Shown: one piece after another, positions 30,524-32,158 of the stretch
Layout of the letters: the number at the start of each line of letters is the position of its first letter
Numbering within the stretch: position 1 is the stretch's first letter
Assembly: GCA_013823945.1 (NCBI GenBank)
Contig: PNMZ01000004.1
Coordinates: forward strand, 186,001-250,000
Source: a bacterium
GTDB lineage: Bacteria > Armatimonadota > Fimbriimonadia > Fimbriimonadales > Fimbriimonadaceae
Reading direction: 5' to 3'
DNA: 64,000 bases
Notes under the pieces: generated by a model
Database searches by the model: none
Told to the model about the DNA's origin: nothing
Seen by the model: only the letters and a program-made list of their open reading frames with translations
Program-made: the position numbers and the translations under genes

Positions 30524-31936
30524 TTAGTAGCGGTAGGTGTCGGGTTTATATGGGCCGGTGGTGTCTACACCGATGTACTCGGCTTGTTCGGGACGGAGGA
30601 CGGTGAGTTCGGCGTCCAGTTTTTCGAGTTGGAGTCGGGCAACTTTTTCATCCAGGATTTTGGGGAGGACGTAAACGCCGGGGGCGTATTCGCCTTTGTT
30701 TTTCCAGAGTTCAATTTGGGCGATGACTTGGTTGGCGAAGCTCGAGGACATGACGTAACTGGGGTGTCCGGTTCCGCAACCGAGGTTGATGAGTCGGCCT
30801 TTTGCGAGGAGGATGATGCGCTTGCCGTCGGGGAAGATGACGTGATCGACCTGGGGTTTGATTTCTTCCCATTCGTAATTTTCCATTGAGGCAACGTCGA
30901 TTTCATTATCGAAGTGGCCAATGTTGCAGACGATGGCATTGTTCTTCATCCGAACCAGGTGATCGTGGGTGATGACATGGTAATTGCCGGTGGCGGTGAC
31001 GAAAATGTCGGCCTTGTCGGCAGCGTAATCCATGGTGACGACTTTGTAGCCTTCCATGGCGGCTTGGAGGGCGCAGATGGGATCAACTTCGGTGACCCAG
31101 ACTTGAGCGCTGAGGGCGCGGAGGGCTTGTGCGGAGCCTTTGCCGACATCACCATAACCGCAAACGACGGCAGTCTTTCCGGCGATCATGACGTCCGTGG
31201 CGCGTTTGATGCCATCAACGAGGGATTCGCGGCAGCCGTAGAGGTTATCGAATTTGCTCTTGGTCACGCTGTCGTTGACGTTGAAGCAAGGGAAGGGAAG
31301 CTCGCCTTTCTTTTGGAGTTCGTAGAGGCGGTGGACTCCGGTGGTGGTTTCTTCGCTGACGCCTTGGATGTTGGCTTTGATTCGGCTGTAGAACGTGGGG
31401 TCTTCCTTGAGCTTTTTCCGGATGGAGTTGAAGAGGCAGACGGCTTCTTCGCTGGTGGGGTTATCGAGGACGGAGAGGTCGGATTCGGCCTTGGTGCCGA
31501 GGAGGATGAGCATTGTGGCATCGCCTCCGTCGTCGAGGATCATGTTGGGGGTTCCGCCGTCGTGCCATTCCATGATCTTGTGGGTGAAGTCCCAGTATTC
31601 GTCGAGATTTTCGCCTTTGAACGCGAAGACGGGGATGCCTTGTTCGGCGATAGCGGCGGCGGCTTGGTCTTGGGTCGAATAGATGTTGCAACTCGCCCAC
31701 CGGACTTCGGCTCCGAGGGCGACGAGGGTTTCGATGAGAACGGCGGTTTGGATCGTCATATGGAGCGATCCGGCGATGCGGGCACCGGCGAGGGGTTTTT
31801 CGGCGGCGTACTCTTTGCGGATAGCCATGAGGCCGGGCATTTCGGTTTCGGCGATGCGGATTTCTTTGTGGCCCCATGCGGCGAGGGACAGGTCGGCAAC
31901 GTGGTAATCGGTTTTGTTGTGGGTGACGGTGCTCAT
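30524..31936 (-). CDS. ahcY: Adenosylhomocysteinase
   Basis: 470 aa. It splits S-adenosylhomocysteine into adenosine and homocysteine, relieving product inhibition of methyltransferases and regenerating methionine. Motifs: [33 protein letters not shown], the NAD-binding [12 protein letters not shown], and the C-terminal [10 protein letters not shown]. The leader carries an SAH riboswitch and terminator, and AGGA lies about six bases before the ATG. Genes for methionine synthase or metK are not in the window. Confidence 0.97.
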
Positions 31937-31980
31937 ATGTGTTCCTAATGGAGTTTTGGTTGGATCGTTTGCCTTGTCCT

Positions 31981-32022
31981 AAAAGGAAAACGCTCGCAAC
32001 CGGTTTTTTCGGGTTGCGAGCG
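31981..32022 (-). terminator. Riboswitch expression platform: intrinsic terminator before ahcY
   Basis: On the minus strand CGCTCGCAACC (32022-32012) pairs with GGTTGCGAGCG (32001-31991), an 11-base stem, followed by TTTTCCTTTT (31990-31981). Six bases of the 5' arm region (GCGCTC, 32023-32018) are also the downstream pseudoknot strand of the SAH aptamer, so ligand-bound aptamer and terminator compete. Confidence 0.85.
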
Positions 32023-32089
32023 CAGTTCTTGTCCCGGGTTTTTTCGGGGTGGTCGAGCCTGGTCTCTTTCGATCGCAGCGCTCCTCGAC
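32016..32089 (-). promoter_or_regulatory. S-adenosylhomocysteine (SAH) riboswitch aptamer
   Basis: Minus-strand RNA begins GUCGAGGAGCGCUGC, has CCAGGCUCGAC in the middle and ends AACUGCGCUCGC. These match the conserved GAGGAGCGCUGC, CCAGGCUCG and GCGCUC blocks of the SAH riboswitch. P1 is GUCGAG/CUCGAC; GAGCGC (32083-32078) can pair with GCGCUC (32023-32018) as the pseudoknot. It is followed by a terminator and then ahcY, whose product removes SAH. Predicted logic: SAH forms the pseudoknot, sequesters the terminator arm and turns ahcY on. Confidence 0.93.
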
Positions 32090-32099
32090 TTCTGAATGA

Positions 32100-32108
32100 G
32101 TTGTACCA
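32100..32108 (-). promoter_or_regulatory. Possible extended -10 promoter of ahcY
   Basis: Minus strand reads TGGTACAAC, an extended -10 form (TGn then TACAAC). It lies 11 bases before the aptamer, so transcription would begin at its 5' edge. No good -35 box is visible. Confidence 0.3.
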
Positions 32109-32140: not shown

Positions 32141-32158
32141 CACGGGTTAAAACCCGTG
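32141..32158 (-). terminator. Stem-loop after the VWA gene
   Basis: cacgggtt pairs with aacccgtg over a 2-base centre, 17 bases after the VWA stop. No T-run follows closely on the minus strand, so it is a weak terminator candidate for the FHA/VWA operon. Confidence 0.4.

Follow-up and report, generated by a model that had tools for sequence, protein, structure and literature searches.

The leader of the adenosylhomocysteinase gene ahcY in the window (the whole analyzed stretch of DNA, 64,000 nucleotides long) is very probably a riboswitch of the SAH class (RF01057) with a transcription-terminating platform, predicted to switch expression on in the presence of SAH. The class was reportedly described by Wang et al. 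in 2008. SAH is a toxic by-product of methylation, and the sensor RNA sits before the gene whose product destroys it. The leader comprises 156 nt up to the ATG at 31936 on the minus strand. The gene itself (30524–31936, minus strand) encodes a 470-residue protein that matches TIGR00936 with 605 bits and has PDB entry 3d64 as a relative (E 3e-236). As originally predicted, the aptamer lies directly before ahcY, in the window as well as in relatives. The finding extends the range of the class, which has been described mostly in Proteobacteria and Actinobacteria, to the phylum Armatimonadota.

The RF01057 covariance model matches at positions 32092–32011 of the minus strand over its full length (model positions 1–78 of 78) with a score of 32.8 bits and an E-value of 1.3e-4, computed against all 4227 Rfam families. 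The aptamer blocks GAGGAGCGCUGC (32086–32075), CCAGGCUCG (32062–32054) and GCGCUC (32023–32018) are all present on the minus strand where the original prediction had placed them. That prediction had also proposed scoring with the Rfam model, counting a score below threshold against it. The score does fall below the gathering score of 37 bits, and for this reason a default Rfam scan misses the aptamer; at the gathering threshold, the scan of the window reported two tRNAs only. This measure is judged too strict here. A lineage covariance model built from 26 leaders of other Armatimonadota genera, with the genus of the window left out, gives 50.0 bits (E 1e-10) for the window aptamer, the next match in the 64 kb scoring 8.3 bits, and four congeneric leaders score 35–39 bits with RF01057. 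On account of these scores the element is considered a true member of RF01057; the gathering cut-off is set by curators to govern automatic listing and does not describe the structure that characterizes the class. By sequence, the window element is thus an SAH riboswitch aptamer of an already known class. Scores of 33–39 bits are found within the genus and of 39–62 bits in other genera. The low values are probably due to features common to the genus, namely a P4 hairpin cut to UC-GNRA-GA, an extra hairpin in the linker that joins P1 to the pseudoknot strand and, ahead of GCGCUC, AACUG replacing AACGG. The Rfam cut-off hides most copies of the riboswitch in this genus. The 3.16-Mb genome contains one credible copy, that before ahcY; a second RF01057 match, at 14.1 bits, was dismissed as chance. 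A CRISPR-DR54 match in the window (20.2 versus 39 bits) was also dismissed.

Helix P1 is formed by the strands GUCGAG (32084–32089) and CUCGAC (32057–32052). The P4 hairpin is reduced to UC-GAAA-GA (32065–32072), a short form common to the genus. The pseudoknot pairs GAGCGC (32083–32078) with GCGCUC; all six pairs are present in the window, are standard in all 26 aligned relatives and are intact in 45 of 45 leaders. Between P1 and the 3′ pseudoknot strand, folding predicts an optional linker hairpin CCCG...CGGG (32033–32048), and leaders of other genera carry a different hairpin, or none, at this site. The helices covary. Among the 26 leaders of other genera, ten pairs of P1 and P4 are changed on both sides, including five of the seven P1 pairs, and the aptamer covariation score is 0.370, a value reached by none of 500 shuffles, compared with 0.168 after shuffling. 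When the P1 and P4 partners were slid by 1–3 columns, pairing was lost, and all five measures exceed those of the slid controls. In one leader (L009), a second, partial linker hairpin and AACGGCGCTCGG lie just before ahcY, about 200–350 nt downstream of the start of the aptamer; this partial copy resembles a duplication of the 3′ part of the riboswitch.

The 3′ pseudoknot strand also begins an intrinsic terminator (31981–32023, minus strand), consistent with the dual role originally proposed for it. The terminator pairs CGCUCGCAACC (32022–32012) with GGUUGCGAGCG (32001–31991) through 11 base pairs plus one G-U pair and continues into the U-rich tail UUUUCCUUUU (31990–31981). It has the stable, G+C-rich stem directly before a U tract that defines intrinsic terminators, with an energy of −20.0 kcal/mol when intact and −8.8 kcal/mol when the GCGCUC strand is withheld. 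In the predicted fold all 11 pairs have pairing probabilities of 0.82–1.0. Folding with both pseudoknot strands kept unpaired removes the lower half of the terminator and allows P1 to form. A simple terminator scan misses this hairpin because a loop of 10 is longer than the scan allows. The same sharing is widespread: a terminator that uses the pseudoknot strand is found in 41 of the 45 Armatimonadota leaders, compared with 0.5 expected from dinucleotide shuffles of the downstream sequence. Three leaders (L020, L022 and L140) have no recognizable terminator and another (L145) has a branched one, such that this platform is common but not universal in the set. Beyond the shared strand the stem covaries, and a single position can show as many as six pair types. 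Within the shared strand, one leader (L148) has a U replaced by C, and the new base still pairs in the pseudoknot (G-C) as well as in the terminator (C-G).

These pairings suggest the following switch. Without SAH, GCGCUC (32023–32018) would start the terminator hairpin of 11–12 bp and RNA polymerase would stop before ahcY. With SAH, GCGCUC would be held in the pseudoknot with GAGCGC, and the leftover 6-bp hairpin, apart from the U tract, should be unable to terminate; ahcY would then be transcribed and SAH hydrolyzed. The aptamer, the mutually exclusive pairings with their conservation and covariation, and the identity of the gene can be read from the sequences; that the window leader binds SAH, how tightly it does so and that termination responds are inferred. 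The comparison across the 45 leaders lends support to the ON logic of the original prediction.

A mainly translational switch, with a hairpin that masks the ribosome site, is very improbable. Such platforms do exist in the class: in two gammaproteobacterial leaders (L048 and L053) the pseudoknot strand GCGCUC base-pairs around the start codon of ahcY and occludes it, unlike in the window. Here, however, the probable Shine-Dalgarno sequence AGGA (31943–31946, minus strand, 6 nt before the start codon) lies outside the switch structures, about 45 nt beyond the end of the hairpin, which argues for transcriptional control, and the stem is followed by a U-rich tail in the window as in 41 of the 45 leaders. 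Hairpins similar to that of the window are found in Hydrogenophaga (L051) and Rhizobacter (L056), where the pseudoknot strand also runs into a hairpin and then a T run, although these hairpins use only part of the strand. A pseudoknot strand that also serves a terminator is thus not new in itself. The crcB and pfl motifs are likewise similar in that a terminator overlaps the conserved RNA and the ligand is expected to favor expression (PMC2864571), but their aptamers and genes are unrelated.

It is slightly less probable still that the genus retains a degenerate former riboswitch, which no longer binds SAH and has left a plain attenuator. The reduced P4, the AACUG sequence and the sub-threshold scores of the genus relative to other genera could be read in this way. 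On the other hand, each of the five element-bearing members of the genus keeps the core positions, every one of the six pseudoknot pairs and the terminator, and the P4 loop, GAAA in the window, is GCAA in a congener (L024), both being GNRA loops.

Aptamer variants with changed ligands exist in other riboswitch classes, and an RF01057-like fold that binds SAM, or both SAM and SAH, would be compatible with the sequence. This reading is very improbable: all credible copies with a readable downstream gene precede ahcY, where a SAM-responsive ON switch would make less sense, and the SAH riboswitches that have been tested have an affinity for SAM 1000-fold or more below that for SAH (PMC11188199). 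The SAM/SAH riboswitch RF01727, which shares with RF01057 the class feature of a small, pseudoknotted SAH-binding aptamer, has a different fold and precedes metK in Rhodobacterales (PMC2864571, PMC4239095); the Rfam scan found no match to it in the window.

Compared with the RF01057 class as a whole, the window element is alike in its core blocks, P1, P4, pseudoknot, place before ahcY and (here predicted) ON logic. It differs in host phylum and in the reduced P4, extra linker hairpin and sub-cut-off score of its genus. SAH riboswitches are mainly known from beta- and gammaproteobacteria and also from Mycobacteriaceae, and horizontal transfer of riboswitches has been suggested (PMC3766115). They precede ahcY in seven proteobacterial lineages, for which co-evolution with ahcY has been proposed; the core regulon of Proteobacteria consists of ahcY and metF (PMC4239095), whereas the single copy in the window genome precedes an ahcY without adjoining metF. 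A literature search, whose scope excluded the original papers on the class and the Rfam full alignment, returned no report that joins Armatimonadetes and riboswitch.

The original prediction considered an ON switch in this lineage worth recording, the class being best known from proteobacteria and actinobacteria, but the riboswitch is not rare there: RF01057 is present in 70 of 291 Armatimonadota genomes (E at most 0.01), about a quarter of those searched. AhcY relatives were identified in 269 of the 291 and fall into three groups by identity to the window protein: about 75–100% (68 genomes), about 60–66%, and about 42–49% over the catalytic half. All 68 genomes with an AhcY of the first group (at least 75% identity) carry the riboswitch, and no credible riboswitch was found in the 201 genomes with other AhcY types, where a single weak match (G267; 29.9 bits with Rfam, 20.4 bits with the lineage model) lies in apparent coding sequence and was dismissed as chance. 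The remaining riboswitch-bearing genome (G135) has its riboswitch at a contig end, so that ahcY is cut off. Another match (L027, 24.4 bits), apparently inside coding sequence and without an adjoining ahcY, was also dismissed as chance. Where other AhcY types were sampled, no other Rfam riboswitch adjoined the gene. Judged from these sequences, the riboswitch and the first type of AhcY are inherited together as a unit, or cassette, in Armatimonadota. With 68 of 68 versus no credible case in 201, this is a clean example of a cis-acting RNA strictly co-inherited with one version of an enzyme.

The division runs through the genus of the window. Four members (G003, G005, G006 and G007) have both the riboswitch and a first-group AhcY, and three (G001, G002 and G004) have neither, carrying instead an AhcY of 420–430 residues (39% identical in G004). 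Through these congeners with and without the riboswitch, SAH recycling under regulation can be compared in nature with recycling that lacks it. In the window, ahcY is flanked by a VWA-domain gene and purF. In G004 these two genes are adjacent, about 165 bp apart, with no ahcY between them, and ahcY is on another contig. The closest solved relatives of the G004-type AhcY (7r3a, 3x2e and 5tov) include an S-inosylhomocysteine hydrolase as well as further AhcY enzymes of the short type, which are archaeal or Thermotoga proteins.

The genome of the window belongs to the family Fimbriimonadaceae, and the closest AhcY among named records is that of Armatimonadetes bacterium Uphvl-Ar1 (99% identical). 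Outside Armatimonadota, a search of 84,980 species gave best matches almost exclusively in Proteobacteria and Geobacteraceae, at 72–81% identity, and many of these relatives also carry an SAH riboswitch. In the AhcY tree, Fimbriimonadaceae (f1) and a second Armatimonadota family (f10) are placed separately among these relatives with SH-aLRT support of 80–88, although neither a single clade of the two families (p-AU 0.16) nor a grouping of all Armatimonadota (p-AU 0.28) was rejected in tree tests. Judged from these comparisons, the cassette was probably transferred from Proteobacteria. The fuller scenario, in which Armatimonadota acquired the riboswitch-ahcY cassette from Proteobacteria, perhaps repeatedly, and the cassette displaced an archaeal or Thermotoga-like AhcY even between congeneric species, is about evenly balanced between true and false; if true, a regulatory RNA and its enzyme would have been replaced as one unit. 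Two metagenome-assembled genomes labelled Chromatiales (L039 and L040) encode an AhcY 80–81% identical to that of the window, without an SAH riboswitch, and their ahcY directly follows an apparent 3′ end of metK. A contig labelled Akkermansia muciniphila (L087) bears a betaproteobacterial-type ahcY with an SAH riboswitch and is probably mis-binned.

Upstream of the aptamer, by about 10 nt, a probable but weak extended −10 element, TGG TACAAC (32100–32108, minus strand), is proposed from its position only; most relatives have TATAAT-like hexamers at the equivalent place, and a consensus scan found no sigma-70 promoter at the riboswitch leader. The interval from the VWA gene to the riboswitch promoter contains a perfect palindrome, CACGGGTTAAAACCCGTG (32141–32158), which occurs once in the window; it is perhaps the terminator of the VWA gene or a repeat element. 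In the near-identical relative G006 (L218; G006:C1:1425200-1428600), about 1 kb of extra sequence separates the VWA gene from the riboswitch, and this insert contains small reading frames that resemble a toxin-antitoxin pair as well as a second copy of the 3′ end of the VWA gene.
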